NCBI RefSeq assembly: GCF_900156505.1
Contig: NZ_FTPR01000002.1
Location: 186,001-250,000 of the forward strand
From: Yoonia rosea
Lineage (GTDB): Bacteria > Pseudomonadota > Alphaproteobacteria > Rhodobacterales > Rhodobacteraceae
Direction of reading: 5' to 3'
Length of the DNA: 64,000 nt
The notes under the pieces are model-generated. The model was given only the letters and a program-made list of their open reading frames with translations, ran no database searches and was not told the DNA's origin. The position numbers were made by a program, and so were the translations under genes. This document shows positions 34,151 to 52,154 of the stretch, in pieces (the first letter of the stretch is position 1; the number at the start of each line of letters is the position of its first letter).

Positions 34151-34164
34151 TTGACATTGCTCAA
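34151..34164. promoter_or_regulatory. FNR/FixK-like box (one mismatch) upstream of Usp
   Basis: TTGACATTGCTCAA, one mismatch to TTGAY-N4-RTCAA. It is the exact reverse complement of the site at 45642-45655. Confidence 0.55.
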
Positions 34165-34202
34165 TCGCAGCAGGTCATGCGGCATCTGTTTCGATTGTGC
34201 AG

Positions 34203-34239
34203 AAAAAACCGAGGTCCGCGTCTTTATTCGCGGCCTCGG
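34203..34239 (-). terminator. Terminator of the Crp/Fnr regulator gene
   Basis: On the minus strand CCGAGGCCGCG pairs with CGCGGACCTCGG (one bulged base) across an 8-base loop and is followed by six T. Confidence 0.85.
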
Positions 34240-34260
34240 CAGTCATGGGGGAACTCAGGA

Positions 34261-34938
34261 CTAGTCGCTGTCGCCCTGCGCAATAGCACGCAAACCAACG
34301 GGTTTCAGAATAACAACAGTGTTCACATGGTCGATCGCGATGATCTGCGACTTGCGTAATTGCGTGAACGTGCGGCTGATGGTTTCCGTGGTCAGGCCCA
34401 GAAAATCCGCGATATCGGCACGCGTCATGGGCAAGGCGATTTGTGTATACTCTCCGAGCGGTTCGCCCACACGTGCCGAAAGCACCAGCAGGAAAGACGC
34501 CAGCTTTTCAATCGAGGATTTGCGGCCCAGCATCATGAAATGGTCCTGCATCCCGCTGATTTCACGCAAAGCGGCCCGCAACAGGCGCAGGTGCAGTTCT
34601 GGATCACCCTTGGCGCTCTCAAGATCCGAGCGGCGGTGCACGATCAGTGTTGTCGGCACAAGCGCGTCGCAGTCTGTGTGATAGCGCCCGTTGCTCGGGA
34701 AACCGACAGTGTCGCCGGGATACCCAAAGGCGATAACCTGCCGACGTCCGTCTTCCATGATCCGGGTCAGACGTAAAACCCCGCTGGCAACTTCATAGAT
34801 CAGGCCAGCAGGGTCATCTTCAAGGAACAGATGCTTGCCCGGCTTGATCGTTATCGTCGCTTGTCGCGCGATGGATGGCTTGCGGGCCGGAATGACGGCT
34901 GTGTCATCATTAAAGTCTGGCGAGGAGGTGACGTACAT
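34261..34938 (-). CDS. Crp/Fnr-family regulator, FixK-like
   Basis: This 225-residue protein has a cyclic-nucleotide-fold domain (about 20-140) and a DNA-binding domain with MTRADIADFLGLTTETISRT. The ETISR recognition helix is that of FNR and FixK proteins, which read TTGAT half-sites. The N-terminal Cys cluster needed for an FNR iron-sulfur cluster is absent; only one Cys (DCDALV) is present. That fits FixK/Dnr proteins, whose activity depends on synthesis or on haem. ATG at 34936-34938 follows AGAAGGAAGCTGCC. The gene is divergent from an OmpR-type regulator, with tandem repeats between them. Confidence 0.88.
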   Translation of the reverse strand: MYVTSSPDFNDDTAVIPARKPSIARQATITIKPGKHLFLEDDPAGLIYEVASGVLRLTRIMEDGRRQVIAFGYPGDTVGFPSNGRYHTDCDALVPTTLIVHRRSDLESAKGDPELHLRLLRAALREISGMQDHFMMLGRKSSIEKLASFLLVLSARVGEPLGEYTQIALPMTRADIADFLGLTTETISRTFTQLRKSQIIAIDHVNTVVILKPVGLRAIAQGDSD

Positions 34939-35002
34939 GGCAGCTTCCTTCTGTGCGATGCACGACACTTGCGCGGTCTTCGTATCGGACATACCGGAGG
35001 TT

Positions 35003-35034
35003 GCGTATCAAATTGTATCAATTTGTATCAAAGC
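35003..35034. promoter_or_regulatory. Three GTATCAA direct repeats spaced 10 bp
   Basis: GTATCAA occurs at 35005-35011, 35015-35021 and 35025-35031, exactly one helical turn apart, between the divergent Crp/Fnr and OmpR-type genes. OmpR-family regulators bind such direct repeats, so this is a candidate site for the neighbouring response regulator. Confidence 0.65.
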
Positions 35035-35102
35035 CAGAAATAGACTATGTTCACCTATGCCGAGCCCTTACTTTCCAATGTAGAAAGGACCGGAGGCCGT
35101 TC

Positions 35103-35873
35103 ATGAAAAACGCTGTCATTTTGGTCGTCGATGATGACCCAAAGATCAGAACCTTGCTACGCCGGTGCTTTGAGGGCGAAGGCAGCGAGGTCCACGAAGC
35201 GGGCGACAAGGCAGCGACGCTTCAGGCGCTTGCTGAGGGTCAGTTCGATCTGGTGACGCTGGATCTTGATCTGGGTCCAGATGACGGCTTGGACGTGGCC
35301 AAGGCCATCCGCCAGACGTCCTCTGTTCCGATCATCATGGTGACGGCAAAAAGTGACGTGATTGACCGCGTCGTCGGGCTCGAGATTGGCGCAGACGACT
35401 ATATTTCAAAGCCGTTTCACCTGCGCGAAGTGGTTGCACGCATCAAAACAATCTTGCGCCGGTCCCGGCGCACAGCCCAGCCGACAGTATTGCCGCCCGA
35501 TAGCCCGTGCTGGGTGTTCGACGATATGGTCGCCATACCTGCAGAAATGAAACTGCTGGACCGCAACCATGACTTGGTCGACCTCACAAGCGGCGAGTTT
35601 ACGTTGCTAGAGGTCTTTTTGCGCCGCCCGAAACGCGTGCTTTCGCGCGAACAACTGATGGATCTGACAGGCGGGCAAAGCTATGCGCCGCTTGACCGCA
35701 CCATCGACAACCAGATTGCCCGTCTGCGCAAGAAGATTGAACGCAACCCCGCATCACCACGGTTGATATCGACCATCCGCGGCATCGGATATTCGTTCAC
35801 ATGTGACGTCCGGGACTGTGACAATCATCCACCATCGAATAGCGCCGAAAGCGCATTGGCCAGATCCGACTGA
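35103..35873 (+). CDS. OmpR/PhoB-type response regulator (FxkR-like by context)
   Basis: This 256-residue protein has a receiver domain (about 1-120) with the acidic pocket VVDDD, phospho-acceptor near Asp54 in VTLDLDLG, Thr in MVTAKSD and Lys in SKPFHLRE. A winged-helix DNA-binding domain (about 150-240) reads DLTSGEFTLLEVFLRRPKRV, then DNQIARLRKKIERNP and TIRGIGYSFTC. The start follows GGAGGCCGTTC. Its 3' end overlaps the convergent hybrid kinase gene by 49 bp. In rhizobia a regulator of this type (FxkR) links hybrid FixL to fixK; the same roles are inferred here from gene order. Confidence 0.92.
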   Translation: MKNAVILVVDDDPKIRTLLRRCFEGEGSEVHEAGDKAATLQALAEGQFDLVTLDLDLGPDDGLDVAKAIRQTSSVPIIMVTAKSDVIDRVVGLEIGADDYISKPFHLREVVARIKTILRRSRRTAQPTVLPPDSPCWVFDDMVAIPAEMKLLDRNHDLVDLTSGEFTLLEVFLRRPKRVLSREQLMDLTGGQSYAPLDRTIDNQIARLRKKIERNPASPRLISTIRGIGYSFTCDVRDCDNHPPSNSAESALARSD

Positions 35874-37354
35874 CGGTAAGGTTTGCGCAGAATTTGCAGA
35901 TTTGTATCGGTGTTTTTGGCGTTGAGGATGTCTTCGCCATAGCCTGACGTCAGCAGAATACGGATGTGCGGATAGGTCGCCACGATGTGCCGTGCGAGCG
36001 CGAGGCCATCCAGTTCCCCTGGCATCACCAGATCGGTAAACACCGCGTCTATCGTGTCTTTCTGACGCAGTATTTCGGCAGCATCATCGCCGGACCCGCA
36101 TTCTTCAACAACATAGCCCAACTCCTTGAGCCGCGCGACAGTCAGACGGCGCACCTGAGGGTTGTCTTCAACCACCAAGACAGATTCCCCGTTCGCCGCG
36201 TGGCGGTTGATGCTTTCTCCGGCGGTGCGGCGCATTACAGGGGCTTCACCTAGGATCGGAAAATACAGCGCGACTGTCGTTCCCAGCCCTATCTCGCTGT
36301 AGATTGCAACATGGCCACTGCATTGCCGCACAAAGCCATAAACCATCGCAAGCCCAAGTCCGGTGCCGCGCCCGATGGGTTTTGTCGTAAAGAACGGTTC
36401 AAACGCCTTTTGTTGCGTGTCCGGCCCCATGCCGATGCCGGTATCGGTCACAGAAATGCGGACATAGTGGCCCTGCGCCACGTCAAGTTCCTGCGCGACG
36501 TAAGTGTCATCTATCAGGATGGTCTCTGTGCGGATGATCAACTTGCCACCATCAGGCATCGCATCACGGGCGTTCAGCGCGATGTTGATCAGCGCGGATT
36601 GCAACTGCGTGGTATCGGCGAGGACAATCGGTAACGGATCGCTGCGCTCAAAGCTGATGTCGTACTGCGGATCAAAGGTGCGCCGGATGAGGACCGTGGC
36701 TGCATCACAGGCCTCATTCACGTCGGTAGGGTCGCAATGCGTCATTGTGGTGCGCGCAAATGCGCTGATCCCCGCAGTCAGTTCTGCACCCAAATGCGCC
36801 GCCTCGACCGCATCAGACAGAATTGCCTGATTGTCCTCGCCGTCGATCCTTGCCTCCAACAGCTCGAGATTGCCAATAATGACGGTCAAGATATTGCTGA
36901 AATCGTGACTGATCCCGCTGGTCATCTGGCCGATCGCATCGACACGCGCAGACCGCGCCAGGGCATCCTCGGCCGCCTTGCGTTTACTCTGATCGTGCAG
37001 GATTGCGATAAAGTAGGTCTGTCCTGCCTGCTCGGCCTTCCCGATGGACAAATGCAACGGAAAGGCGGTGCCATCGCGCCGCAGCCCTTCGACGGCACGC
37101 CCCAACCCGATAACCCGCTCAATGCCGGTAGTCAGATAGTTTTCCATAAAGCCATTGTGCCGATCCGCGAGCGCCTGCGGCATCAGGATATTGACGCTTT
37201 CGCCAATCAATTCCGCAGGATCATGGCCAAAGAGACGCCCAACAGCGGGATTGGCCTGCAGGATCACGCCTTCGGCATTACTCACCAGAACCGCATCAGG
37301 CATCGCATCGAGCAGGGCCATGAACAAAAGCGCATCGCGTTGGTCATCGCTCAT
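35825..37354 (-). CDS. FixL-like hybrid histidine kinase with haem-type PAS domain
   Basis: This 509-residue cytoplasmic protein has a PAS domain at about residues 14-125, a HisKA domain with phospho-His near 150 (TSGISHDFSNILTVIIGN), a HATPase domain (NIALNARDAMPDGG and TGLGLAMVYGFV) and a C-terminal receiver domain with VFTDLVMPG. The PAS resembles FixL: His66 matches the haem-ligating His and Arg86, 20 residues on as in FixL, matches the O2-contacting Arg. The two propionate-contact residues are replaced (Asn72, Arg80). ATG at 37352-37354 follows GGAAAGG. An oxygen-sensing role is strongly suggested but unproven. Confidence 0.9.
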   Translation of the reverse strand: MSDDQRDALLFMALLDAMPDAVLVSNAEGVILQANPAVGRLFGHDPAELIGESVNILMPQALADRHNGFMENYLTTGIERVIGLGRAVEGLRRDGTAFPLHLSIGKAEQAGQTYFIAILHDQSKRKAAEDALARSARVDAIGQMTSGISHDFSNILTVIIGNLELLEARIDGEDNQAILSDAVEAAHLGAELTAGISAFARTTMTHCDPTDVNEACDAATVLIRRTFDPQYDISFERSDPLPIVLADTTQLQSALINIALNARDAMPDGGKLIIRTETILIDDTYVAQELDVAQGHYVRISVTDTGIGMGPDTQQKAFEPFFTTKPIGRGTGLGLAMVYGFVRQCSGHVAIYSEIGLGTTVALYFPILGEAPVMRRTAGESINRHAANGESVLVVEDNPQVRRLTVARLKELGYVVEECGSGDDAAEILRQKDTIDAVFTDLVMPGELDGLALARHIVATYPHIRILLTSGYGEDILNAKNTDTNLQILRKPYRQSDLANALSALFDGG

Positions 37355-37403
37355 CAGGGTCTGCCTTTCCACACTGAGTGTTCACGCAGAGTGACTCCTA
37401 TTA

Positions 37404-37417
37404 TTGAGAAAAATCAA
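37404..37417. promoter_or_regulatory. FNR/FixK-like box (one mismatch)
   Basis: TTGAGAAAAATCAA lies between the divergent hybrid kinase and host-attachment-type genes. There is one mismatch in the left half. Confidence 0.55.
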
Positions 37418-37470
37418 CTGCACCCCGCGCCATGCCCATAGATTGCCCGAAACTCACGGGAGAAACGGCG

Positions 37471-37908
37471 ATGAAACCACATAAAACGTGGATTGTACTG
37501 GCGGATTCCAAACACGTGCGGATTGCCGTCAATGATGGCCCCGGAAAGGGCATCTACGGCCACAGCACCGAGGGACTGGAAGCGCCGCCTGTCACTGAAC
37601 TATCCGATGCCCCGGGAATGACCACTGCGCCCGTTGGGCCAAACCGTGGCAATATCTCTGACCCCGATTTCAAAGGGCTCGCAGCGGCAGCATTTGCCGA
37701 TGACATTGTTGCCTGTCTCGAGGCTGCGCTGGATCAAGGCGAATTTGAGCGTCTTGTTCTTGTGGCCTCTCCCGCCATGCTGGGTATCCTGCGCAAGGCG
37801 CTGACGCCGAAAGTCAAATCTGCTTTGCGCGCCGAGGTACCCAAAGATCTGACACATATCCCGCTGACTGAACTCCCTGATCATCTGACTGAAATCATGC
37901 TGGTCTAG
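37471..37908 (+). CDS. Host-attachment family protein (baeRF-like)
   Basis: This 145-residue protein matches the family annotated as protein required for attachment to host cells. It begins TWIVLADSKHVRIAVNDGPG, has the acidic DPDFKGLAAAAFADDIVACL helix, and ends ELPDHLTEIM. There is no signal peptide, so the surface role in the name is doubtful; the fold is related to release-factor-like domains. ATG follows GGGAGAAACGGCG. An FNR-like box lies 54 bp upstream. Confidence 0.8.
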   Translation: MKPHKTWIVLADSKHVRIAVNDGPGKGIYGHSTEGLEAPPVTELSDAPGMTTAPVGPNRGNISDPDFKGLAAAAFADDIVACLEAALDQGEFERLVLVASPAMLGILRKALTPKVKSALRAEVPKDLTHIPLTELPDHLTEIMLV

Positions 37909-37936
37909 GCAGTGATCCCCGCGCGCGCTGTCAAAC

Positions 37937-37950
37937 TTGATGCATGTCAA
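37937..37950. promoter_or_regulatory. FNR/FixK box upstream of the phasin gene
   Basis: TTGATGCATGTCAA is a perfect match to TTGAY-N4-RTCAA, 56 bp before the phasin ATG. Confidence 0.75.
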
Positions 37951-38005
37951 CGCCGATTTCGTCGCAACGCGCTAAAATCTCTGCAGTAAGAAACAAGGGG
38001 AACAG

Positions 38006-38371
38006 ATGATGTCGAAATCAGAAAATGAGACTGCCGCTAATGATACCCTGCTCACAATGGGTAAGGCATGGATGAAACAATTCGAGGATGCGGGACTCTA
38101 TCCATTGGGATTGATGCATACCGGATGGTTTGACAAAGTTGCCGAAATCAACGCCGAAGTTGCGAATTTTATCGCAGACCGGATCCGCGAAGATGCCAAG
38201 ACCCAAGGCGAACTGTTGAAATGCAAGTCCGCCGAGGAATTGCAGAAAGTGCAGATGACGTTCCTAGAAAAAACCTACGCCCAATACACCCTTGAGACAG
38301 GCAAGCTGATCAAGATGGGAATGGAAATGATGCCGGTCGTCGATGGCCAAACCAAACACACCCCCGTCTAG
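38006..38371 (+). CDS. Phasin-like protein
   Basis: This 121-residue helical, amphipathic protein has no signal peptide. KAWMKQFEDAGLYPLGLMHT and a long helix (AEINAEVANFIADRIREDAK followed by CKSAEELQKVQMTFLEKT) resemble small phasins that coat polyhydroxyalkanoate granules. Phasin-like proteins also act as stress chaperones. ATG follows AAGGGGAACAG. A perfect FNR box lies upstream and a terminator hairpin downstream, so it is a single-gene unit. Confidence 0.72.
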   Translation: MMSKSENETAANDTLLTMGKAWMKQFEDAGLYPLGLMHTGWFDKVAEINAEVANFIADRIREDAKTQGELLKCKSAEELQKVQMTFLEKTYAQYTLETGKLIKMGMEMMPVVDGQTKHTPV

Positions 38372-38402
38372 ACGAAATGCGTAGCCAGCAGAGCGACAAT
38401 AG

Positions 38403-38460: not shown

Positions 38461-39342
38461 CTAGAGCTTGTTCAACGGCACTTTGAGCATCTCGTTGCCG
38501 TCCTGATCTCTCGGCACTTCGCCCGCACGCATGTTCACCTGTAGCGACGGAATGATCAGGCGGGGCATATCCAGCGTCGCATCGCGCTCTGTGCGGAATT
38601 TGATGAACTCGTCGCGCGTCTTGCCGTGACCTACGTGGATATTATGGGCTTTTTCCTCGGCGACAGTGGTTTCCCATTTAATATCGCGTCCATTGGGACC
38701 GTAGTCATGGCACATGAAAAGACGCATGTCGTCGGGCAGGGCCAACACCTTCTGGATGCTGTCATAGAGCGTGCCCGCGTCACCACCGGGGAAATCGGCA
38801 CGTGCGGATCCGCCGTCAGGCATAAACAGCGTATCACCGACAAAACAGGCATCACCGATAACATGCACCATACAGGCAGGTGTATGCCCCGGCGTGGCAA
38901 TGACAAAAGCTTGCATATTCCCGATCTGATAAGTGTCGCCTTCTTTGAACAAAGCATCAAACTGCGATCCGTCGCGCTGGAATTCCGTGCCTGCGTTAAA
39001 GATCTTGCCAAAAGTGTCCTGCACAACTGTGATCTTCTCACCTACACCGATCTTGCCACCCAGCTTTTCCTGAATATAGGGGGCTGCGCTTAGGTGGTCG
39101 GCGTGCACATGGGTCTCGATGATCCAGTCGAGCTTCAGGCTGCGCCGCTCGACTTCAGCGATCAGCGCATCGGCGCTGTCATAGGTTAGGCGGCCTGCGG
39201 CATAGTCGATATCCAGCACACTATCAATGATCGCGCAATGATCACCGTCAGGTTCCGACACGACATAGCTGATCGTATTTGTTGCCTCGTCAAAGAAGGG
39301 CGAAACATGGGGTTTGATCGTCATATCAAAAGGATAAGGCAT
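38461..39342 (-). CDS. Metallo-beta-lactamase-fold hydrolase, persulfide-dioxygenase type
   Basis: This 293-residue protein has the metal-binding THVHADHLSAAPYIQ motif at about residues 77-91, ATPGHTPACMVH and FVGDTLFMPDGGSARADFPG, the last typical of ETHE1/Blh sulfur dioxygenases. It would oxidise glutathione persulfide in sulfide detoxification. ATG follows GAGGAGAAACTG. Upstream are a near-perfect palindrome like the SqrR/BigR operator (39364-39379) and an FNR box (39403-39416), suggesting control by both sulfide and oxygen. Confidence 0.85.
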   Translation of the reverse strand: MPYPFDMTIKPHVSPFFDEATNTISYVVSEPDGDHCAIIDSVLDIDYAAGRLTYDSADALIAEVERRSLKLDWIIETHVHADHLSAAPYIQEKLGGKIGVGEKITVVQDTFGKIFNAGTEFQRDGSQFDALFKEGDTYQIGNMQAFVIATPGHTPACMVHVIGDACFVGDTLFMPDGGSARADFPGGDAGTLYDSIQKVLALPDDMRLFMCHDYGPNGRDIKWETTVAEEKAHNIHVGHGKTRDEFIKFRTERDATLDMPRLIIPSLQVNMRAGEVPRDQDGNEMLKVPLNKL

Positions 39343-39402: not shown

Positions 39403-39416
39403 TTGATCGAAATCAA
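39403..39416. promoter_or_regulatory. FNR/FixK box upstream of the metallo-hydrolase gene
   Basis: TTGATCGAAATCAA is a perfect site, 61 bp before the ATG of the minus-strand hydrolase gene. Confidence 0.75.
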
Positions 39417-39418: not shown

Positions 39419-39733
39419 CTACCCCATACATTTGCGGCAGGTGACGGCGTAGGGCACGGCATCCAGACGTTCCGGAGAGATGTCACCTCCGCATTTGGCG
39501 CAAATGCCATAGGTGCCCTTCGCGATCCGTTTCAACGCATCATTCAAGAGCCCCACCTCTTTCTGATTGCTCAGTCCAAGGCTGCTCAGGACTTCGTCGT
39601 CTTCAAGATCAATAGCCTGATCTTCAAGATCGGCCGGAAGGGGTTGATCAAGATCGTCAGAAATCTTCTGCATATGCGCAGTCAGCTCTGCAATCCGGTT
39701 TTCGATCTGTGCTTTGCGTTCTTCAAAAGCCAC
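39419..39733 (-). CDS. TraR/DksA-type zinc-finger protein
   Basis: This 104-residue protein has an N-terminal coiled coil (about 1-60, AFEERKAQIENRIAELTAHM), an acidic LEDDEVLSSLGLSN turn and a C-terminal zinc finger with Cys pairs in GICAKCGGDISPERLDAVPY and TCRKC. Proteins like this bind the secondary channel of RNA polymerase. GTG at 39731-39733 is chosen since GGAAGGACAGGCAC precedes it; the longer frame lacks a ribosome site. It is divergent from DUF2267 across an FNR box. Confidence 0.87.
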   Translation of the reverse strand: MAFEERKAQIENRIAELTAHMQKISDDLDQPLPADLEDQAIDLEDDEVLSSLGLSNQKEVGLLNDALKRIAKGTYGICAKCGGDISPERLDAVPYAVTCRKCMG

Positions 39734-39825: not shown

Positions 39826-39839
39826 TTGATTTTGATCAA
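39826..39839. promoter_or_regulatory. FNR/FixK box between TraR/DksA and DUF2267 genes
   Basis: TTGATTTTGATCAA is a perfect site. The same 14 bases recur at 46823-46836. It is placed to serve either divergent gene. Confidence 0.75.
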
Positions 39840-39899: not shown

Positions 39900-40328
39900 A
39901 TGAGCCGGATGATCCATGTCTTTGAACGCACGACCCATGAGGCACATGAATGGGTGAACGATCTGGCCGGACGCACCGGTTGGACCAATGAACGCGAGGT
40001 CCTGCGCTTGCTGCGTACTGTACTGACCAAAATTCGTGATCATCTTCCGGTCGATGAAATGGCACAGTTTTCGGCGCAGCTTCCGATGCTTGTGCGCGGG
40101 ATGTTCTTCGAAGGCTGGCAGCCAAAACTGACGCCGGTTCAGGAACGCCACGCCGCGGATTTCATCGCGGCGGTCGATGCGCAGGTCGGCGATGTGATCG
40201 ACTATCAGGGATCAAAAGACATCAAGGCGGTCTTCAACGTCATCAATGCCCATATCTCACGCGGCGAAGTAGAAGATGTTCGCGCGTGCCTGCCACAAGA
40301 GTTGCGCGATTTATGGCCCGTGCCATAG
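39900..40328 (+). CDS. DUF2267 family protein
   Basis: This 142-residue helical protein begins HVFERTTHEAHEWVNDLAGR. VLRLLRTVLTKIRDHLPVDE and LPMLVRGMFFEGWQP are characteristic of DUF2267, and the C-terminus VFNVINAHISRGEVEDVRAC repeats the pattern. ATG at 39900 follows AAAAGGAAATTTGTG. The function is unknown; the family commonly travels with stress genes. It is probably under the FNR box 61 bp upstream. Confidence 0.83.
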   Translation: MSRMIHVFERTTHEAHEWVNDLAGRTGWTNEREVLRLLRTVLTKIRDHLPVDEMAQFSAQLPMLVRGMFFEGWQPKLTPVQERHAADFIAAVDAQVGDVIDYQGSKDIKAVFNVINAHISRGEVEDVRACLPQELRDLWPVP

Positions 40329-40348: not shown

Positions 40349-40957
40349 TCACCCCACCCGTGCGGCGACCCATGGCAGCGCCTGCGGCAAGAGCGCCTCA
40401 AGTGCCGCTTGAAAGCTCCTTGCAATTGTATCGGCCCGATCATCGGCAACCGGCAACACCGTGGCAAACCGCTGTGTGCCCAACACCCTTTGATCGCGGT
40501 CACGCAACACAGTCAGCTCGAACGACACCCGCGCCACAAAACTGCCATCTGTTTGCCGATCAACCCCGAAGGCATCAATCCGCGTCAGCAGCACCGCATC
40601 AGGCACGGGGCCCGCCCCTTGTGCGCCCACAAAGCCGATCTGCCCACTGGACGCGATTGACTGGATCAGGACCGTCTGGAACATATTCGGCACGGTATCG
40701 GCCCAGCGCGCATCAGGCAGATAAGTGACAGAGAGCGGGTCCTGCTTGATCAAGATCCGGTCGGTGGCGATCGCGGCAGCGGCGCTTGGCTCAAGCACCA
40801 GCAATGTCCGCGATGATCGTCTTGTCTGACCGGCGCTGCTGACAGGCTGCAAGGCATAGGTATCGCGCGGAGCGGCCGCGTCATTGAGAACCCCGAGTGC
40901 CGTGCAGCCGGGCAGGGCGAGTGTCGCCAACATAAAGGTCCGTCTTGTCAGGGTCAT
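40349..40957 (-). CDS. ABC-type transport auxiliary lipoprotein (PqiC-like)
   Basis: This 202-residue lipoprotein has signal peptide and lipobox LALPGC (Cys18), so it is membrane-anchored on the periplasmic side. The segments RDTYALQPVSSAG and ARWADTVPNMFQTVLIQSIA are typical of the PqiC/YmbA family that partners MCE lipid transporters. It lies 5 bp after the MlaD-type gene and ends the four-gene operon. It would link the MCE protein to the outer membrane. Confidence 0.85.
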   Translation of the reverse strand: MTLTRRTFMLATLALPGCTALGVLNDAAAPRDTYALQPVSSAGQTRRSSRTLLVLEPSAAAAIATDRILIKQDPLSVTYLPDARWADTVPNMFQTVLIQSIASSGQIGFVGAQGAGPVPDAVLLTRIDAFGVDRQTDGSFVARVSFELTVLRDRDQRVLGTQRFATVLPVADDRADTIARSFQAALEALLPQALPWVAARVG

Positions 40958-40962
40958 CGGTC

Positions 40963-44065: not shown

Positions 44066-44099
44066 ATCCACCTTCTATGTCGGCGCGATTCAAGGTGCG

Positions 44100-44113
44100 T
44101 TGATCAAGGTCAA
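44100..44113. promoter_or_regulatory. FNR/FixK box upstream of the Mla-type operon
   Basis: TTGATCAAGGTCAA is a perfect match to TTGAY-N4-RTCAA, 35 bp before the mlaE-type ATG. Confidence 0.72.
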
Positions 44114-44132
44114 GGACCGCAATGACCCCCTG

Positions 44133-44146
44133 TTGATAAACATCAA
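44133..44146. promoter_or_regulatory. FNR/FixK box upstream of the 48-residue protein gene
   Basis: TTGATAAACATCAA is a perfect site, 33 bp from the previous box (start to start) and 62 bp before the small gene. Confidence 0.75.
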
Positions 44147-44450: not shown

Positions 44451-45590
44451 CTAGAGTGCTGTCCGCTGGATCGCGTTCTCGGCACGATGCAAATGCCCGA
44501 TCAGATTGGCCAAGGTGACCACGCCCATCAGTTTGTGTTCATCAACCACCATGAACTTGCGTACACCAGTCTGGGAAATCAGCTCTAATAAGGCACGGAC
44601 CGCCATATCCGGCGGGATCGTGACCGCAACATCAAGGCCGGCAAACACATCGCCAACGCGCGTACTGGTCCAATGATCGCGGTCAATGGCGGACAAGACA
44701 TCTTTGTCGATCTGCCCGATCAGCACCCCATCAGCCACAACCGGAACAAAGCTGACCCGGTATTTCAACATCACCTGATTAACGAATTCCGACAATGTCA
44801 GATCGGGCGAGACAACGATGGGATCTCTGATCATAACGGCCGAGACTGTCTTGCCTTCAAACGTGCTTTGCATCAGCTGGTTCTGGTAGGCGGACCGTGC
44901 CGCAGCCAGCACAAAAAAACCGATCAGAACGTACCAAAGCCCCGAGGGTGCCGCGCCCAGAAAGACGGTGTAGGCCCCCAAGGCAATCAGACCATAGGCC
45001 AGAATCCTCCCCGATGTCGCAGCCGTCCGTGTCGCGCTAAGCAGATCGCCGTGCCGCGCCCAAAGATAGGCCCGCAAGACGCGGCCACCATCCATCGGAA
45101 ATGCCGGCAACATGTTGAACACAGCAATCACGATGTTCACCGTGCCAAGATATGTCAGAACGCTTGGCACGGCAGGAGAGATCATGACCGCCTGCGATAC
45201 CCCCGCCAACATCCAGAAAAGACCACCCAGTACAATGCTCATCGCGGGGCCCGCAATCGCGACGCGGAATTCGACCTTCGCAGAGGGTACCTCGGTTTCA
45301 AGCTCGGCCACACCGCCAAACAGGAACAGGGTGATCCCCTTGATCCGCACACCATAGCTACGGGCAACGACCGAATGTGCCAACTCGTGCAGTAAAAGCG
45401 AAGTAAAGAAGCCAAGCATCGCGAAGACGGCCAAGAACACATAGCTCGTGTCGGCCAAACCCGGCAACGTGAGGGGAAAATACTGGGTCGCGAGCGTCCA
45501 TGTGATCAGAGCTGCAATCAAGAACCAGCTTGGGTCCAGCTTGATCTCAAAGCCACCCACATTGAATAACCTGATCGCGGATGTGAACAT
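44451..45590 (-). CDS. Site-2-protease-type M50 metalloprotease with CBS domains
   Basis: This 379-residue membrane protease has the zinc motif HELAHSVVARSYG at about residues 66-78 and the second motif NMLPAFPMDGGRVLRAY near 160. About six membrane segments are present. Two CBS domains fill roughly 240-370 (MIRDPIVVSPDLTLSEFVNQ and MVVDEHKLMGVVTLANLI) and probably sense adenine nucleotides. The start follows GTGAGGTTCCAGA. It cuts a transmembrane substrate, possibly an anti-sigma factor; the target is unknown. Confidence 0.92.
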   Translation of the reverse strand: MFTSAIRLFNVGGFEIKLDPSWFLIAALITWTLATQYFPLTLPGLADTSYVFLAVFAMLGFFTSLLLHELAHSVVARSYGVRIKGITLFLFGGVAELETEVPSAKVEFRVAIAGPAMSIVLGGLFWMLAGVSQAVMISPAVPSVLTYLGTVNIVIAVFNMLPAFPMDGGRVLRAYLWARHGDLLSATRTAATSGRILAYGLIALGAYTVFLGAAPSGLWYVLIGFFVLAAARSAYQNQLMQSTFEGKTVSAVMIRDPIVVSPDLTLSEFVNQVMLKYRVSFVPVVADGVLIGQIDKDVLSAIDRDHWTSTRVGDVFAGLDVAVTIPPDMAVRALLELISQTGVRKFMVVDEHKLMGVVTLANLIGHLHRAENAIQRTAL

Positions 45591-45641: not shown

Positions 45642-45655
45642 TTGAGCAATGTCAA
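45642..45655. promoter_or_regulatory. FNR/FixK-like box (one mismatch) upstream of the M50 protease
   Basis: TTGAGCAATGTCAA, 52 bp before the ATG. Its reverse complement occurs at 34151-34164, so the same variant site is used twice. Confidence 0.55.
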
Positions 45656-45704: not shown

Positions 45705-46475
45705 CTATTGCGCCACATACCCGCCATCAATCGGGATCGCGGTCCCGGTGATAAACCCTGCACGCGGCGAAGACAGCCACACGATAAGCTCGGCTATCTC
45801 CTGAGGTGTGCCGATACGGCCCATCGGATGCAGGGGCGCCATCATATCTGTCGCGGATTGCGCGCCTGATGTGACCTGTTCTGCCAGCGAATCCAGCATT
45901 CTGGTATCGACGCCACCGGGGCAAACCGCGTTCACACGAATGCCGGAGGTCGCATACTCAAGTGCCACGTTCTTGGTCAGGCCAATCACACCGTGCTTGG
46001 AGGCGACGTAAGGCGACAGCCCCGAAAAACCGATAAGCCCTGCAATTGAGGACAGGTTCACAATCGTACCGCCCCCTGTCTCAAGCATCGCAGCGATCTC
46101 GGCCTGTAAACACAGGAAGGTGCCTTTCAGGTTCACGCCGATAATCGCATCAAAGTTTTCCTCGGTTTGTGCGGCAAACGGCGCAATCTTGCCCTCAATT
46201 CCCGCATTGTTCACCGCGCAATCAAGTCTGCCATAGGCCGCAACCGTCTTGGCAATCAGATCGGAAACATCCGCTTTTTTCGCAACGTCAGCCGCAACAA
46301 AAAGCGCTGTCCCGCCCGCTTTTTCAATCATTCTAACGGTCTCTGCCCCGCCGTCCTGATTGACGTCAGACACAACGACCTTTGCGCCCTCTGCGGCGAA
46401 TGTCTTGGCCGTGGCGCGTCCGATCCCGGCCGCGCCGCCCGTCACCAAAGCGACTTTATCTGTTACCAGTCCCAT
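45705..46475 (-). CDS. Short-chain dehydrogenase/reductase
   Basis: This classical SDR has 256 residues. The NAD(P)-binding motif TGGAAGIGRATAKTFA lies at about residues 12-27, NNAG at about 88, and catalytic Ser in IVNLSSIAGLIGFSG with the YVASKHG motif (Tyr and Lys) at about 154-160. DVNQDG after the second strand suggests NAD preference. The substrate is unknown. It follows the DUF2892 gene on the same strand, 54 bp away. Confidence 0.9.
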   Translation of the reverse strand: MGLVTDKVALVTGGAAGIGRATAKTFAAEGAKVVVSDVNQDGGAETVRMIEKAGGTALFVAADVAKKADVSDLIAKTVAAYGRLDCAVNNAGIEGKIAPFAAQTEENFDAIIGVNLKGTFLCLQAEIAAMLETGGGTIVNLSSIAGLIGFSGLSPYVASKHGVIGLTKNVALEYATSGIRVNAVCPGGVDTRMLDSLAEQVTSGAQSATDMMAPLHPMGRIGTPQEIAELIVWLSSPRAGFITGTAIPIDGGYVAQ

Positions 46476-46822: not shown

Positions 46823-46836
46823 TTGATTTTGATCAA
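46823..46836. promoter_or_regulatory. FNR/FixK box between DUF2892 and exporter genes
   Basis: TTGATTTTGATCAA is a perfect site, identical to 39826-39839. It is 51 bp before the exporter ATPase ATG on one side and 84 bp from the DUF2892 start on the other. Confidence 0.75.
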
Positions 46837-46886: not shown

Positions 46887-47606
46887 ATGGGCCAAGCCGC
46901 GCCAGAAATTGTCTTTCGGACCCAAGGTGTCACGAAGGTCTATCAGACCGGCGACGTGAAGGTATTTGCCCTCGCGGGTGTTGATCTTGAACTCTACACC
47001 GGTGAAATGACTGTCCTTCTGGGGCCGTCGGGCAGCGGCAAATCAACCTTGCTTAACATCCTTGGCGGTCTGGATCATGCGACGGCGGGACGTGTCTGGT
47101 TTCGCGATACCGAGCTTACCGATATGCCCGACCGCGCACTGACCCGCTATCGCCGCGATCACGTGGGCTTTGTGTTCCAGTTCTACAATCTGGTGCCCAG
47201 CCTGACCGCGCGTGAAAATGTCCAGCTTGTCACCGATGTCTCGCCTGACCCGATGTCTGCGGAAGAGGCGCTGGCGCTTGTTGGTCTGGCCAAACGGATG
47301 GACCATTTCCCCTCCGAAATGTCAGGCGGCGAACAACAGCGTGTCGCCATCGCCCGCGCCATCGCCAAGCGCCCCGAAATCTTGCTCTGCGATGAACCCA
47401 CAGGGGCACTGGACAGTACTACAGGTGTGCAGGTTCTGGAGGTCTTGCAGGACATCAACTCCCGTTTTGGCACGACCACGGTCATCATCACCCATAATGC
47501 TGAAATTCAGCGCATGGCGCACCGTGTCATCCAGTTTGCGGATGGGAAAATCAGCAGCGTCCACACAAACGAAACACGCCTTGCCCCGTCAGAGATCGTC
47601 TGGTGA
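46887..47606 (+). CDS. ABC exporter ATPase (LolD/MacB/DevA type)
   Basis: This 239-residue ATPase has Walker [17 protein letters not shown] at about residues 44-59, Q-loop [14 protein letters not shown], signature [19 protein letters not shown], Walker [13 protein letters not shown] and H-loop IITHN. This subfamily works with FtsX-type permeases. The ATG shares a transcript with the permease, whose start overlaps its stop by one base. Context makes it the motor of a three-part exporter. Confidence 0.92.
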
Positions 47607-49969
47607 TGCAGGCGATTGACCGCAAACTACTCCGCGATTTTTCGCGTCTCTGGAAACAGGCCCTCGCCATCGCCCTGGTGCTGGCCTGCGGCGTCGCGAT
47701 CCTCCTGACCGCGTTGGGGATGTACAAATCCCTCAGCGATACCCGCAACACCTATTATGAGCGCAACCGTTTTGCCGATGTCTTTAGCGCCGTACAGCGC
47801 GCGCCCGAAAGACTCGTGACAGAACTCGCCGCGATTGAAGGGGTTTGGGCGGTTGAGACGCGCACCGTGGGCAGCGCTGTTCTGGATGTGCCCGGAAGTA
47901 TGGTCAGCGTGACAGGGAAAATCCTGTCACTGCCGCCAGATGGTGCGCCGCGACTGAACGTGCCACTTCTCAAGACAGGTCGGTTACCCGATCCCACATC
48001 AACCGATGAAGTGATGGTGAACCATAATTTTGCGCTCGCGAACGGATTCCAGCTTGGCGATTTCTTCTATGCCAATCTCAACGGCCAGAAGCGGCAACTG
48101 ACGATCACCGGCACCGCCCAGTCGCCCGAGTTTATCTACACCATCGGTCCGGGTGCCTTGATGCCCGACAATGCCACTTTCGGCATTTTGTGGATGTCGC
48201 AGGTGGCCGTGGCCGCTGCCTTTGATATGACGGGGGCGTTCAACGATGTCGCGCTGAAACTCAGCAAGGGCGCGCGCGCAGAGAACGTGATTGACGCCGT
48301 TGACCGGCTGCTTGAACCTTACGGATCATTGGGCGCTTACGGGCGGGATCTGCAGGCCTCGCACAGCTTTATCGACAGCGAAATCAAACAGCTGCAGAAT
48401 ATGGCAACGGTGCTGCCGCCGATCTTCTTCGGGATATCTGCATTTCTGGTCAGCATGGTCATGGGGCGGATCATTGCGCTTGAACGCAGCCAGATCGGCC
48501 TGCTCAAGGCGGTGGGCTATTCCAACCTTGAGGTTTGTTTGCACTACCTGATGCTCGCCGTGCTGATTGCGGTGGTCGGCATTGGAATTGGCTGGCTTGT
48601 CGGTGCGTGGCTGGCACGCCAGATGGCGTTGCTCTATGCCGAATATTTCGACTTTCCTTTTCTGATCTTCAGCACATCGCTTTGGGTCTATGCGGCCTCT
48701 GGCATGGCGGCGATGCTGACCACAACGCTAGGAGCCGCGCAGGCCGCCATCAAGGCCGCGCGTCTTGCCCCCGCCATTGCGATGCAGCCCCCCGCGCCAC
48801 CGCAATTCAAACGCTCTTGGATCGACCGCGCGATGGCGGCCATGCACCTGTCGCAACCTACGATCATGATCCTGCGGTCGTTGATACGGTGGCCTGTGCG
48901 GAGCGGGCTGACGTTGCTGGGGCTGGCGCTGGCGGTCTCGACCGTGGTGTCGCCCTCGTTCTTCACCTATTCACTGAACAGGATTGTCGATAGCGCATTC
49001 TACGAAAGCGCACGTCAGGATGGCATGTTGATCCTGTCCCATGACATGCCCGAAATTGTTCTTGCTACAGCCGCCGACCTGCCAGCGGTTTTGCAGGCAG
49101 AAGGGCAGCAATACCATCCTGTCATCCTGAATAACGGCAACCGCGAAAAGCGGACAGTCATTCAAGCTGGCCGCCCCGACAGCGACCTCAGCCGCGTGAT
49201 CGACAAGGAGGGCAAACAGATCGCCGTGCCGCCGGGCGGGGTGGTGTTGACCGAACGTCTTGCCACGCAACTCGATGTCAGGGTCGGGGATACGGTTGAC
49301 GCCAAGTTCCTTGGAGGCCGGCAGGAAACGCATCCTTTGCGCGTGACCGATATCATCGCGCAGTACTTTGGTCTGGGCGCCTATATGGATCTGGAATACG
49401 TCAATGCGCTATTGCGGCAATCACCGCGCATTTCCCTGATCAATGTGTCTCTGGACGATAGCGAGGTTGCGGACCTGCACAGCAGGCTCAAGGATATTCC
49501 CAGCCTCGCGGGCATCGTCATGATGACAGACACACGGCGTTCCTTTTCCGAAACGATCGCGCAGAATATCGGTGTCATGAACACGATCTACATCGTGATT
49601 GCCCTGCTCATCACCATCGGCGTGACCTACAACGGGGCGCGGATACAGCTGTCGGAACGGTCCCGCGAACTGGCCAGCCTGCGTATCCTCGGTTTTACGC
49701 GCGCCGAGGTGTCCTACATCCTGATCGGTGAAACCATGTTGCTGTCGGTTCTGGCGCAGCCCTTGGGCTGGTGGATCGGGACGCTGATTACAGCCAGCAT
49801 GTTCAACAGCTTTTCCAGCGACCTTTATAACATGCCGCTTGTCATACATCCGGCGATCTATGCCAAGGCGAGCATCGTCGTTCTGCTGGCCAGCTTTGGT
49901 TCTGTGATGCTGGTACGGCGCAGGCTGGACAAACAAAACCTCGTGTCTGCAATGAAAGTAAGGGAGTAA
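47606..49969 (+). CDS. FtsX-type ABC exporter permease, duplicated form
   Basis: This 787-residue membrane protein has a first helix at about residues 20-40 and a periplasmic MacB-like domain. A first FtsX block of three helices lies at about 265-380 (FFGISAFLVSMVMGRIIALE, QIGLLKAVGYSNLEV) and a second set at about 660-785 (ERSRELASLRILGFTRAEVS). Duplicated FtsX permeases move lipids, lipoproteins or peptides mechanically rather than through a pore. It is flanked by its ATPase and a HlyD-type adaptor. The substrate is unknown. Confidence 0.9.
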   Translation: MQAIDRKLLRDFSRLWKQALAIALVLACGVAILLTALGMYKSLSDTRNTYYERNRFADVFSAVQRAPERLVTELAAIEGVWAVETRTVGSAVLDVPGSMVSVTGKILSLPPDGAPRLNVPLLKTGRLPDPTSTDEVMVNHNFALANGFQLGDFFYANLNGQKRQLTITGTAQSPEFIYTIGPGALMPDNATFGILWMSQVAVAAAFDMTGAFNDVALKLSKGARAENVIDAVDRLLEPYGSLGAYGRDLQASHSFIDSEIKQLQNMATVLPPIFFGISAFLVSMVMGRIIALERSQIGLLKAVGYSNLEVCLHYLMLAVLIAVVGIGIGWLVGAWLARQMALLYAEYFDFPFLIFSTSLWVYAASGMAAMLTTTLGAAQAAIKAARLAPAIAMQPPAPPQFKRSWIDRAMAAMHLSQPTIMILRSLIRWPVRSGLTLLGLALAVSTVVSPSFFTYSLNRIVDSAFYESARQDGMLILSHDMPEIVLATAADLPAVLQAEGQQYHPVILNNGNREKRTVIQAGRPDSDLSRVIDKEGKQIAVPPGGVVLTERLATQLDVRVGDTVDAKFLGGRQETHPLRVTDIIAQYFGLGAYMDLEYVNALLRQSPRISLINVSLDDSEVADLHSRLKDIPSLAGIVMMTDTRRSFSETIAQNIGVMNTIYIVIALLITIGVTYNGARIQLSERSRELASLRILGFTRAEVSYILIGETMLLSVLAQPLGWWIGTLITASMFNSFSSDLYNMPLVIHPAIYAKASIVVLLASFGSVMLVRRRLDKQNLVSAMKVRE

Positions 49970-49972
49970 CCG

Positions 49973-51187
49973 ATGACCTGGAAACCGCGCACCATCGGAC
50001 TGGTCGGCCTTGGCGCCGCACTCATGCTTGGGATGGGTTATGTCGCCCTGCAGGAAGATCCTGTGCCAGTCGATCTGCACACCATCACCCGCGGACCTTT
50101 GGCGGTGACGATCAACGCCGATGGCGTCACACGGATCAAGGATATCTATGATGTGGCCAGCCCCATAACGGGAACAGCGTTGCGATCGCCGGTCGATGTG
50201 GGTGATCCGGTGATTGGCGGCCAGACCGTGATCGCGGTCGTGCGCCCTGCGGCACCGGGATTGCTGGACAGCCGGAGCCTACTTCAGGCGCAAGCGACCG
50301 TGCAAGAAGCCGAGGCAGCGCTGCACGTCGCAGAGGCGGATTTGGCGCGCGCGCAAGAGGATCGCACACTGGCTCAGGCACAGTACGATCGAACACAAAC
50401 ACTGGTCGAACGCGGTGTGGCCTCGCTGACGCGGTTGGAGGACGCAGTGCAAAAACTTGCTGTCGCCCAAGCCACGGTCGAGGCCGCCGAAGCGCGGATT
50501 GATATGGCCAATAGCACGCTTGCCCGCGCTGCCACGATGCTGCAAAGCCCGCAATCAGCGGCGGATGTGGATGCAAGTTGCTGTCTTGAGATTTACGCCC
50601 CCGCTGACGGCGTCGTCCTGAGTATCGAGAGCATCAGCGAACATCCCGTGGCCACTGGTGCCCCTCTTTTGCGCATCGGAGATCCCGCCCAGCTTGAGAT
50701 TGTCGCCGATCTGTTATCGTCCGACGCGGTCCGCCTGCAAACCGGCGCATTTGCGACTGTCGAACGCTGGGGGGGCAATAATGCTCTTGCGGCAACGCTG
50801 ACCCGTATTTCACCGGCGGCAGAGACCAAGATCTCTGCATTGGGCATAGACGAGCAACGCCTTGATGTCATTTTCGACATTACGACACCCGCTGCTGAAA
50901 GGGCGGGGCTGGGGGATGGTTTCGCTGTATTTCTGCGCATCACCGAATGGCAGACAGAAGGCGCTGTCCAGGTTCCTCTGAGCGCGCTTTTCAAACGGCG
51001 CGGCGACTGGGCCGTTTTTCGCGCCGAAGACGGGATTGTGATGGAGCAAATCATCTCCATCGGGCGGCAAAATGCGCAATTTGCCGAAGTTCTCGAAGGG
51101 CTGGAGCCTGAGATGCAGGTCGTGACACATCCGAATGATCAACTGATGACAGGGGCAGACATCGTCCAGCGCAGCAGCCTTGAATAA
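49973..51187 (+). CDS. HlyD-family periplasmic adaptor of the exporter
   Basis: This 404-residue membrane-fusion protein has an N-terminal membrane helix (about 9-27) and a barrel-sandwich lipoyl-like domain split around a helical hairpin (about 95-185, rich in Ala/Gln/Glu: VQEAEAALHVAEADLARAQE). A beta-barrel and membrane-proximal domain follow. It starts 3 bp after the permease. The set ATPase-permease-adaptor resembles DevBCA-type exporters and needs an outer-membrane channel not encoded nearby. Confidence 0.9.
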   Translation: MTWKPRTIGLVGLGAALMLGMGYVALQEDPVPVDLHTITRGPLAVTINADGVTRIKDIYDVASPITGTALRSPVDVGDPVIGGQTVIAVVRPAAPGLLDSRSLLQAQATVQEAEAALHVAEADLARAQEDRTLAQAQYDRTQTLVERGVASLTRLEDAVQKLAVAQATVEAAEARIDMANSTLARAATMLQSPQSAADVDASCCLEIYAPADGVVLSIESISEHPVATGAPLLRIGDPAQLEIVADLLSSDAVRLQTGAFATVERWGGNNALAATLTRISPAAETKISALGIDEQRLDVIFDITTPAAERAGLGDGFAVFLRITEWQTEGAVQVPLSALFKRRGDWAVFRAEDGIVMEQIISIGRQNAQFAEVLEGLEPEMQVVTHPNDQLMTGADIVQRSSLE

Positions 51188-51188
51188 A

Positions 51189-51216
51189 GGGCACGGTGCA
51201 ATACTGCGCCGTGCCC
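51189..51216. terminator. Terminator between convergent exporter and Usp genes
   Basis: GGGCACGGTGCA-ATAC-TGCGCCGTGCCC is a 12-bp stem with one G-U pair. On the minus strand TTTATT follows. It probably works in both directions. Confidence 0.72.
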
Positions 51217-51235
51217 TCGGATCAACGTGTAATCC

Positions 51236-52087
51236 CTAGTGCGACAACAGCACTGCCATGTCTTGCTGCGCAATCATGGTTTCCGTGGTCCCCCCAAAGA
51301 AACGCTCGTTCCAGCGGCTGCGCCCATATGCGCCCATCACGACCAGATCGGCGGTCGTTTCTTGCGCGCGGTTCAGGATCGCCTCTGCCACAGTTTTGCT
51401 ACCGGTCACGTATTCCTGCACGGTGACAGTACACCCATGGTGGCTGAGCCACGTGGCCAAATCGGCACCAGGGCTTTCCCCGTCGCCCCAGCGGGACGGG
51501 TCGGCATCAAAGGTTGCAATCGTCACCTCTTTGGCGGTCTTCAAGAGTGGCAGGGCCGCGCGCACTGCCCGTGCCGCCGGGATGCTATTATCCCATGCGA
51601 GCAGCACATTTTCAGGTGCGAGCGCCTTACTGCCTTTCTCAACATTCAACATCAGCGGACCGGGTGCCTTGAAAAGCAGACCATAGACAATGTCATTGAA
51701 GGCCGTTTCATCATCGCGCAAGGAATTCAGCACGATGCTGACATCGGCAAACAGCGACCTGACGGCGACAATATCATGCAATGCCGTGGGTTCGGCGCAA
51801 AGCGTTGCCACCTCGCCTGTCAGGCTTTCTCGCGTCAGACAGGTGCGCATTTCTTCTTGGCGCGCAGCCAGCCTTTTGTTCATTTCGTCACGCTCGCCAA
51901 GCCATCCTTCGGGAATAACGGGTATGCCGTAAGGGGTGGCAGCAATCGCATAGGTCAAAATCGGCACGGCACCGACATGCAGCACGCTCAGGCGTCCGCC
52001 ATTTGCTTCGGCGGCATCTACGATCGACGCAAGATCGGCGGGGGTGCCTTCCGGTCCTTGCAGGGCAAAAAATGTGGCGTTTTTCAT
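51236..52087 (-). CDS. Tandem universal stress protein
   Basis: This 283-residue protein has two Usp domains: the first half begins ATFFALQGPEGTPADLASIV, and the second begins NVLLAWDNSIPAARAVRAAL and ends ADLVVMGAYGRSRWNERFFG. It closes with TETMIAQQDMAVLLSH, the usual Usp end. The C-terminal G-x2-G-x9-G nucleotide site looks kept only in the second domain. The start follows AGAGGTCCGCT. It is divergent from the CbpA gene with an FNR-like box between them. Confidence 0.9.
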   Translation of the reverse strand: MKNATFFALQGPEGTPADLASIVDAAEANGGRLSVLHVGAVPILTYAIAATPYGIPVIPEGWLGERDEMNKRLAARQEEMRTCLTRESLTGEVATLCAEPTALHDIVAVRSLFADVSIVLNSLRDDETAFNDIVYGLLFKAPGPLMLNVEKGSKALAPENVLLAWDNSIPAARAVRAALPLLKTAKEVTIATFDADPSRWGDGESPGADLATWLSHHGCTVTVQEYVTGSKTVAEAILNRAQETTADLVVMGAYGRSRWNERFFGGTTETMIAQQDMAVLLSH

Positions 52088-52140
52088 AGCGGACCTCTTG
52101 TGAAAGTTGTCTCACCCTAGGCCAAACCAGCAATGCCGGA

Positions 52141-52154
52141 TTGAGATTAGTCAA
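52141..52154. promoter_or_regulatory. FNR/FixK-like box (one mismatch) between Usp and CbpA genes
   Basis: TTGAGATTAGTCAA is central between the divergent Usp (52087) and CbpA (52208) starts. One position differs from TTGAY-N4-RTCAA. Confidence 0.55.

Follow-up and report, generated by a model that had tools for sequence, protein, structure and literature searches.

We analysed a 64,000-nucleotide window of the Yoonia rosea genome (GCF_900156505.1, NZ_FTPR01000002.1, positions 186,001-250,000, forward strand), which corresponds to positions 186001-250000 of contig C2 in a genome of 3,514,278 bases on five contigs. An island in this window (Table 1) carries genes for a hybrid FixL-like kinase, an OmpR-type response regulator and a FixK-like transcription factor among ten FNR/FixK-type boxes. 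With a probability of about 0.77, judged from the sequence, we propose that the island encodes an hFixL-FxkR-FixK cascade with its target genes alongside, and that it most likely represents a low-oxygen stress regulon. The domains, the heme-ligand and phosphorylation residues, the K-box before fixK, the boxes, the box spacing and the conservation of these features are read directly from the DNA; oxygen control and the binding of the boxes by FixK are the steps that we infer.

The kinase, the response regulator and FixK

The preliminary description of this DNA had placed a FixK-like regulator inside the island, and this was confirmed. The 225-amino-acid protein has a single cysteine, and the N-terminal cysteine cluster of the FNR, FnrL and FnrN type is absent; its start was set by comparison with a close relative (locus L017), where a stop codon lies upstream. 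The sensor and the relay had been missed, and both a hybrid kinase and an OmpR-type regulator were found in the same island. The PAS domain of the kinase matched Bradyrhizobium japonicum FixL (1dp6) with an E value of 1e-26 over 116 residues and kept the RH and GxGR motifs, which, with the candidate His and Arg, we take to form the heme pocket and to bind heme and O2. The conserved kinase residues were His72, Arg92, His156 and Asp447. Among the aligned kinases, the candidate heme His was kept in 36/39, the Arg in 37/39, the kinase His in 39/39 and the receiver Asp in 38/39. The C-terminal receiver (Pfam Response_reg) spans residues 398-508. The most hydrophobic 19-residue stretch had a mean Kyte-Doolittle value of 1.49, suggesting that the hybrid kinase is likely a cytosolic sensor.

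The island was compared with plasmid pRL9 of Rhizobium leguminosarum 3841, whose gene identities were taken from the accessible text of PMC7888657 and the annotated gene order. The best match of FxkR9 in the Y. rosea genome was the 35103-35873 regulator (49%, 214 vs 155 bits), that of hFixL9 was the 35825-37372 kinase (41%, 394 vs 245 bits), and that of FixK9a was the island fixK, a weak match (83.9 vs 70.4 bits). Quick trees of the regulator (26/42 locus rows, with very long paralogue branches) and of the kinase (25/38 locus rows) were both compatible with this relationship without being decisive. FixJ is of the NarL type. A FixJ-type partner next door was ruled out, because the adjacent regulator has an OmpR-type C-terminus (FixJ was not searched for elsewhere in the genome). 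Auto-regulation of fixK through an anaerobox was likewise rejected, since its promoter holds no TTGA-N6-TCAA; a box with at most one mismatch lay within 250 bp of the aligned fixK start in 5/44 loci.

Upstream of fixK, the repeats GATACA-N4-GATACA-N4-GATACG run on the fixK strand from position 35029 down to 35004. The published K-box upstream of fixK is GTTACA-N4-GTTACA (accessible text of PMC7888657 and PMC4999443); the window half-site GATACA is one base off, and relatives mix GTTACA and GATACA. As relatives we used 295 genomes of the family (Rhodobacteraceae in the wide sense), about one per genus. At a cutoff of E 1e-30, 35/295 genomes were positive for FixK; G134 and G276 were removed as FnrL-type by tree, which left FixK orthologues in 33/295, most of them with the whole cascade. 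The regulator adjoined fixK divergently in 41/47 Rhodobacteraceae loci, and the order kinase-regulator-FixK was found in 12/13 of a first set of named loci. For the K-box, we examined 43 loci with an adjacent regulator, consisting of the window, the named loci, plasmids and further genomes, two of them rhizobial. All 12 positions matched in 25 of these and at least 11/12 in 36, including 34 of the 41 Rhodobacteraceae loci, compared with 13/9800 base-shuffled 150-bp upstream stretches. In 29 of the 36 loci, the K-box begins 80-95 bp before the fixK start, and four of the six loci without a detected regulator also had no K-box. Several entries were left out: the fragment of fixK at a contig end in G166 (locus set), L108 and L112 (contigs identical to those of L021 and L022), the unannotated R. 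etli 8C-3 (L045; no match) and, in the core-count, K-box and promoter sets but not in the per-gene box counts, L123, a near-copy of L122. Because the sensor and the relay lie in the island and fixK carries a K-box but no TTGA-N6-TCAA box, the circuit would be of the hFixL-FxkR-FixK kind.

The lineage of FixK was examined in a tree of 28 rows, including 20/44 Rhodobacteraceae FixK proteins picked by hand (L028 and L134 were left out); a 56-row tree had very long paralogue branches, a 31-row tree contained one row in a wrong frame (Smel_pSymA_CRP2), and neither was used to place FixK. The Rhodobacteraceae FixK proteins formed one clade (100/98), apart from FnrL (100/99). R. leguminosarum bv. viciae FixK9a and FixK9b and the FixK of plasmid pSmeSM11a fell nearer FnrL, and Sinorhizobium meliloti pSymA FixK fell nearer the Rhodobacteraceae FixK clade (91/78).

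Boxes in the island, the genome and the relatives

Ten boxes had been described in the island, six matching TTGAY-N4-RTCAA perfectly and four with one mismatch, and all of them were recovered (Table 1). All ten are intergenic, given an ABC exporter start at 46887; the mechanically called open reading frame (ORF) would instead begin at 46836, on the final base of the 46823 box. The four weaker boxes deviate each time solely at position five of a single half-site. A search for the core TTGA-N6-TCAA gave 11 matches in the window, namely the ten boxes and a further match at 7835 that falls within an ORF. When up to one mismatch was allowed, the window had 17 matches, seven of them outside the original list, compared with 7.1 ± 2.5 after dinucleotide shuffling, and not one of the 100 shuffled sequences had as many as 17.

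In the whole genome, the perfect pattern occurred 30 times, compared with 4 times for the reversed pattern, and 6/30 lie in the island. The actual rate of these 30 sites, once per 117 kb, replaces the chance rate of once per 262 kb given earlier. The claim of a density far above chance was upheld: six perfect sites in 8.9 kb had a P of about 7e-11 (Poisson, using the density of the other 24), and random placement of 30 sites reproduced this in 0/20,000 trials. The genome-wide scan gave the island, with fixK inside, as the densest cluster. It is not the only one, since 8/24 of the other perfect sites lie on contig C4, some of these beside fnrL and cco genes. Fourteen of these 24 sites lie in mechanically called ORFs (some doubtful) and ten outside. 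The neighbours of the ten were genes for a cytochrome c, an FMN-dependent dehydrogenase, a cation ATPase, a COX1-family (ccoN-like) oxidase, a FixG-family (ccoG-like) protein, a major facilitator superfamily transporter or autotransporter, PPK2 and a sulfur-transport protein, with two places on L077. Contig C4 (275 kb; G000:C4:60000-94000, with sites up to 260 kb) holds FnrL, Usp-like, ccoN-like and ccoG-like genes together with its eight boxes, and its cluster is perhaps a respiratory counterpart of the island. Chance clustering was ruled out by the shuffles, the reversed pattern and the placement tests.

The promoter geometry was assessed in 67 distinct promoters whose box stands 50-75 bp upstream of the start codon. 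A TANNNT hexamer started 28 or 29 bp past the box centre in 43/67, and any other offset between 8 and 39 was found at most twice. A gene-blind scan of all 317 box orientations gave the same peak (52 and 16), with the next highest at 7. In class II activation, the site is centred near -41. The box-to-hexamer spacing corresponds to this position and, on the sequence, is that of class II activation. For 8/10 boxes of the window, the distance to at least one downstream start codon is 56-69 bp, the exceptions being the UspA box (123.5) and the 44100 box (35.5).

Boxes before the same genes recur in other genera. The per-gene counts allowed at most one mismatch within 250 bp upstream and are not independent, because the window and its close relatives (L016, L017) are included; counts for the ABC ATPase gene were excluded, since a slicing error at the edge of one locus (L023) had inflated them. 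In these two relatives, Loktanella sp. 5RATIMAR09 (L016) and PT4BL (L017), the cassette and the greater part of the island keep the gene order of the window. A box was present upstream of baeRF12 in 18/18, phasin in 12/12, M50-CBS in 21/25, Usp2 in 13/15, CbpA in 6/7 and the metallo-beta-lactamase-fold (MBL) hydrolase in 6/7 orthologues. Genes expected to be box-free gave 0/14 for GalU, LacI, MlaF and MCE together, 1/10 for EEP, 1/8 for HlyD, 1/5 for the ABC permease and 1/44 for the regulator. The reversed pattern gave 0-1 matches per gene (baeRF12 0, phasin 1, M50-CBS 0, Usp2 0), and two scrambled palindromes gave 0-3. Across 32 other loci (three FnrL-type), 97 TTGA-N6-TCAA sites were found, compared with 2 for the reversed core.

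Some relatives depart from the usual arrangement. In a Yoonia metagenome-assembled genome (L020, 8317-8449), the hFixL gene is gone between baeRF12 and the regulator, and the box, regulator, K-box and fixK remain. A plasmid of Tropicibacter oceani (L043, 12727-14274) has an hFixL-like kinase by P-type ATPase and acetate/pyruvate dehydrogenase genes; in this locus and in Rhodobacter CZR27 (L042), the annotation names no adjoining regulator or fixK. The FixK orthologue at G250:C3:597529-598191 (L119) has one in-frame TAG within the matched stretch.

Proposed working and competing explanations

We propose the following mechanism. When oxygen falls, the FixL-type heme-PAS domain of the hybrid kinase would give up O2, and the kinase would then signal to the divergent OmpR-type regulator. 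This regulator would bind the three 10-bp-spaced repeats of the K-box and turn on fixK. FixK lacks iron-sulfur cysteines. It would bind TTGA-N6-TCAA boxes centred about 41 bp before transcription starts and, in the class II manner, activate some fourteen units: hfixL (as a positive feedback), the baeRF12-type gene, phasin, MBL hydrolase, DksA-like protein, DUF2267 protein, the Mla-type operon, the small lipoprotein, the M50-CBS protease, the membrane protein with the dehydrogenase, the ABC exporter, the two Usp proteins and CbpA/CbpM. Here we infer the ligand, the response direction, the phosphotransfer route, the DNA binding and the purpose, which is most likely to keep the envelope, proteins and stores intact under oxygen-limited respiration.

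FnrL, an iron-sulfur regulator encoded on contig C4, might instead be the main user of the boxes under anoxia, with FixK as a minor or redundant partner. Its N-terminus in this genome has the CxxCx7CxxC form, its gene lies near the boxed cco genes, and FnrL-type matches (E 1e-25) were found in 34/36 genomes checked. In the accessible text of PMC5398030, usp genes of Dinoroseobacter shibae are activated by FnrL, and that of PMC7888657 describes anaeroboxes common to FixK and FnrN in R. leguminosarum. FixK and FnrL are indistinguishable by site sequence. However, the densest box cluster surrounds fixK rather than fnrL, and the presence of the M50-CBS gene tracks FixK: of the 25 genomes with this gene, 22 belong to the 33 (out of 295) that are positive for FixK (Fisher p 5e-22, in a sample with one genome per genus as a rule, where relatedness remains). 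Only three M50-CBS genomes had no FixK at E 1e-30. Two of them (G168, G099) have FnrL and no TTGA[CTG]-N4-[ACG]TCAA upstream in the fetched stretch, and the third (G125) has one, as well as a more distantly related CRP protein encoded about 18 kb away. In addition, G184 (99% complete) keeps the cassette and boxes with FnrL undetected at E 1e-25, albeit with less canonical promoters. We therefore regard FnrL as an unlikely main user.

It is similarly improbable, in our judgement, that the cascade is real but responds through the heme-PAS domain or FixK to a signal different from oxygen, for example NO, CO or the redox state. Heme-PAS proteins bind several gases, and the window targets comprise general stress genes and no respiratory enzymes, which would suit such a signal. 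Against it, the kinase PAS domain keeps the His and Arg positions of FixL, and a cascade copy on a Sulfitobacter plasmid adjoins ccoNOQP and ccoGHIS, which are high-affinity oxidase genes. The reading that base composition produced the cluster by accident, or that it is a remnant with no particular role here, can practically be dismissed: background sites exist, since 14/24 of the other perfect sites lie inside mechanically called ORFs, but the shuffles, the reversed controls, the recurrence at a fixed distance and the -10 spacing peak contradict it.

Several observations weigh against an hFixL-FxkR-FixK cascade that drives these boxes. FnrL is present in the own genome and in 31/33 FixK-positive genomes (it was not found in G184 and in G166, the latter 71% complete), and, with a recognition helix similar by eye, it could use the same boxes. 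The island FixK is 30% identical to rhizobial FixK9a, and one clade of Rhodobacteraceae FixK and rhizobial hFixL-linked FixK (FixKf) was not rejected (approximately unbiased test, p 0.19), so that the two may be of one descent or of two. An additional phosphotransfer protein may be needed, and the kinase is missing in three of the 43 loci with a regulator. The K-box pattern GWTACA-N4-GWTACA has a single match in the whole genome, at the fixK promoter, and because the reversed control also gives one, this is at chance level genome-wide, though not for the short fixK promoter. The K-box matched fewer than 11/12 positions in 7/43 loci with a regulator, three of them at 8-9 (L122, L025, L126), and two of the six regulator-less loci (L116, L139) still carry it. 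A TANNNT hexamer stands at the expected place in at least one direction for 6/10 window boxes and for 2/5 boxes of G184, whose hfixL/baeRF12 site is mismatched in the core. A box within 250 bp was found for only 10/21 UspA, 9/22 DUF2267 and 19/39 hFixL genes, and one scrambled palindrome matched mlaE and the lipoprotein gene in 3/3 near-identical close relatives.

Features of the island and relation to known systems

Table 1. Coordinates of genes, boxes and operator in the island (window positions; a dot marks features given without strand)
Feature	Position	Strand	Basis or remark
UspA-type universal stress protein, two Usp stretches	33195..34034	-	Pfam Usp 7.8e-20; box centre 123.5 bp upstream of start
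Box TTGACATTGCTCAA, one mismatch, before UspA	34151..34164	.	pattern scan
FixK-like CRP/FNR regulator, 225 aa, one cysteine	34261..34938	-	Pfam HTH_Crp_2, cNMP_binding on longer ORF
K-box, three repeats	35004..35029	-	begins 91 bp before fixK start
OmpR/PhoB-type response regulator (FxkR-like), 256 aa, divergent from fixK	35103..35873	+	Pfam Response_reg, Trans_reg_C
Hybrid FixL-like kinase: heme-PAS, HisKA, HATPase, C-terminal receiver	35825..37372	-	Pfam; start GTG 37372 or ATG 37354
Box TTGAGAAAAATCAA, one mismatch, between hFixL and baeRF12-type gene	37404..37417	.	pattern scan
baeRF12/Host_attach family protein	37471..37908	+	Pfam 1.8e-26
Box TTGATGCATGTCAA, perfect, before phasin; TAAAAT at -10 place	37937..37950	.	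pattern scan
Phasin-like protein	38006..38371	+	Pfam Phasin_2 6.1e-5, 23.6 bits, below cut-off 24.9
MBL hydrolase	38461..39342	-	Pfam Lactamase_B 2.7e-20
Box TTGATCGAAATCAA, perfect, before MBL hydrolase	39403..39416	.	pattern scan
DksA/TraR-type zinc-finger protein	39419..39733	-	Pfam DksA-like_N 1.3e-15
Box TTGATTTTGATCAA, perfect, between dksA-like and DUF2267	39826..39839	.	pattern scan
DUF2267 protein	39900..40328	+	Pfam 5.1e-28
Mla/MCE-type lipid transport operon: MlaE permease, ATPase, MlaD/MCE protein, auxiliary lipoprotein	40349..44071	-	Pfam MlaE 4.9e-75, ABC_tran, MlaD 5.7e-16, ABC_trans_aux 7.2e-19
Box TTGATCAAGGTCAA, perfect, 35.5 bp before mlaE	44100..44113	.	pattern scan
Box TTGATAAACATCAA, perfect, 68.5 bp from both divergent genes	44133..44146	.	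pattern scan
Small putative lipoprotein, 48 aa	44208..44354	+	inspection
M50 site-2 protease, two CBS stretches	44451..45590	-	Pfam
Box TTGAGCAATGTCAA, one mismatch, before M50 protease	45642..45655	.	pattern scan
Short-chain dehydrogenase, second in likely operon	45705..46475	-	Pfam adh_short_C2 8e-67
YgaP-like small inner-membrane protein, 69 aa	46530..46739	-	Pfam YgaP-like_TM 3.5e-17
Box TTGATTTTGATCAA, perfect, between YgaP-like protein and ABC exporter	46823..46836	.	pattern scan
ABC exporter: ATPase, FtsX/MacB permease, HlyD adaptor	46887..51187	+	Pfam
Second universal stress protein (Usp2)	51236..52087	-	Pfam Usp 1.2e-12
Box TTGAGATTAGTCAA, one mismatch, between usp and cbpA, centre 60.5 bp from each	52141..52154	.	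pattern scan
CbpA-like DnaJ co-chaperone and MerR_2 (CbpM-like) protein	52208..53408	+	Pfam DnaJ, DnaJ_C, MerR_2

No terminal oxidase or denitrification genes are among the box-bearing units of the window. The two perfect boxes at 44100-44146 lie 33 bp apart within a single divergent promoter, at 35.5 and 68.5 bp from the start of the lipid operon, and the same arrangement was found in L016 and L017; these twin boxes possibly combine activation with repression. Elsewhere in the window, the product of 18049-18885 carries calcium-binding repeats of the RTX type (Pfam HemolysinCabind 3.4e-33).

The proposed cascade is of a known kind, found in a new order (Rhodobacterales) and with a different output, consisting of stress, envelope and chaperone genes and not of respiration. 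The preliminary description had called the regulon undescribed, which was overstated: in the accessible texts, Rhizobiaceae are already known to have the cascade (PMC4999443, PMC7888657), a FixK regulon with ABC transporter, HlyD and CBS proteins has been predicted (PMC2908626), and FnrL of a roseobacter has Usp genes among its targets (PMC5398030). The hFixL-FxkR-FixK cascade was described in Rhizobium etli and R. leguminosarum (Zamorano-Sanchez 2012, as cited in PMC4999443 and PMC7888657). Like it, the window has a hybrid FixL with a C-terminal receiver, an OmpR-type regulator divergent from fixK, a K-box of N4-spaced GWTACA repeats before fixK, and anaerobox targets. Unlike it, the window belongs to Rhodobacterales, has three K-box repeats, and has stress and envelope genes as targets in place of fixNOQP; its kinase has 515 amino acids and no N-terminal extension, whereas R. 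leguminosarum hFixL9 has 641 and is matched from residue 137. FixLJ-FixK of Caulobacter and Bradyrhizobium likewise involves a heme-PAS kinase that controls FixK and TTGA-N6-TCAA-type boxes, but the partner in the window is OmpR-type and the kinase is a hybrid. The FnrL/DnrD/E/F network of D. shibae is also a roseobacter system with CRP/FNR boxes and Usp targets, but there FnrL senses O2 directly and the output is denitrification, heme and photosynthesis; the term FixK is absent from the accessible text of that paper (PMC5398030).

A parallel stress island, in a root symbiont, lies on the S. meliloti accessory plasmid pSmeSM11a (L040, 100588-130045). A regulator, FixK and hFixL lie there near an ABC exporter operon of the same make-up as 46887..51187, a site-2 protease, Usp and an MBL hydrolase, so the gene grouping recurs outside Rhodobacterales. 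In its 29 kb, this island has six perfect boxes, and its K-box matches at 12/12 positions. It differs in that fixK and hfixL are consecutive on one strand and that acetate-CoA ligase, P-type ATPases, hemerythrin and serine proteases are also annotated. Tentatively, and with much less confidence than in the cascade itself, we suggest a mobile oxygen-controlled survival module, in which sensor, relay, factor and regulon would move jointly between chromosomes and plasmids of Rhodobacterales and Rhizobiaceae. It would form a K-box-switched class II stress and envelope program apart from the respiratory one of FnrL, with the same sensor-relay-operator unit coupled to FixK of different descent.

Two earlier comparative studies placed FixK mainly in Rhizobiales. 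A comparison of 50 genomes reported that Rhodobacterales have only FnrN-type regulators and placed the origin of hFixL-FxkR-FixKf in Rhizobiaceae (accessible text of PMC4999443). A 2010 study predicted a FixK regulon with Hsp20, HlyD, an ABC transporter and CBS proteins, and its accessible text states that L. vestfoldensis lacks a FixK-type regulator and that FixK is in general confined to Rhizobiales (PMC2908626). Our literature search, with most subscription papers outside its reach, returned PMC4999443 alone for FxkR in Rhodobacterales, a weak negative, and found no report linking hFixL with a universal stress protein or FixK with Rhodobacteraceae and microaerobic conditions.

Collectively, about 20 kb of a Yoonia/Loktanella-like bacterium appears to hold an oxygen circuit of the rhizobial kind, in an order reported to lack such a circuit. 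Its operator and promoter geometry are readable from the sequence, and the occurrence of FixK in 33/295 genomes extends beyond its earlier, mainly Rhizobiales placement. Marine roseobacters meet steep oxygen gradients. An oxygen program for the upkeep of stress and envelope functions, and not for respiration, would be directly testable in the carrier strains, and it suggests a likely condition for genes of unknown role, namely those of the DUF2267, baeRF12 and M50-CBS proteins.

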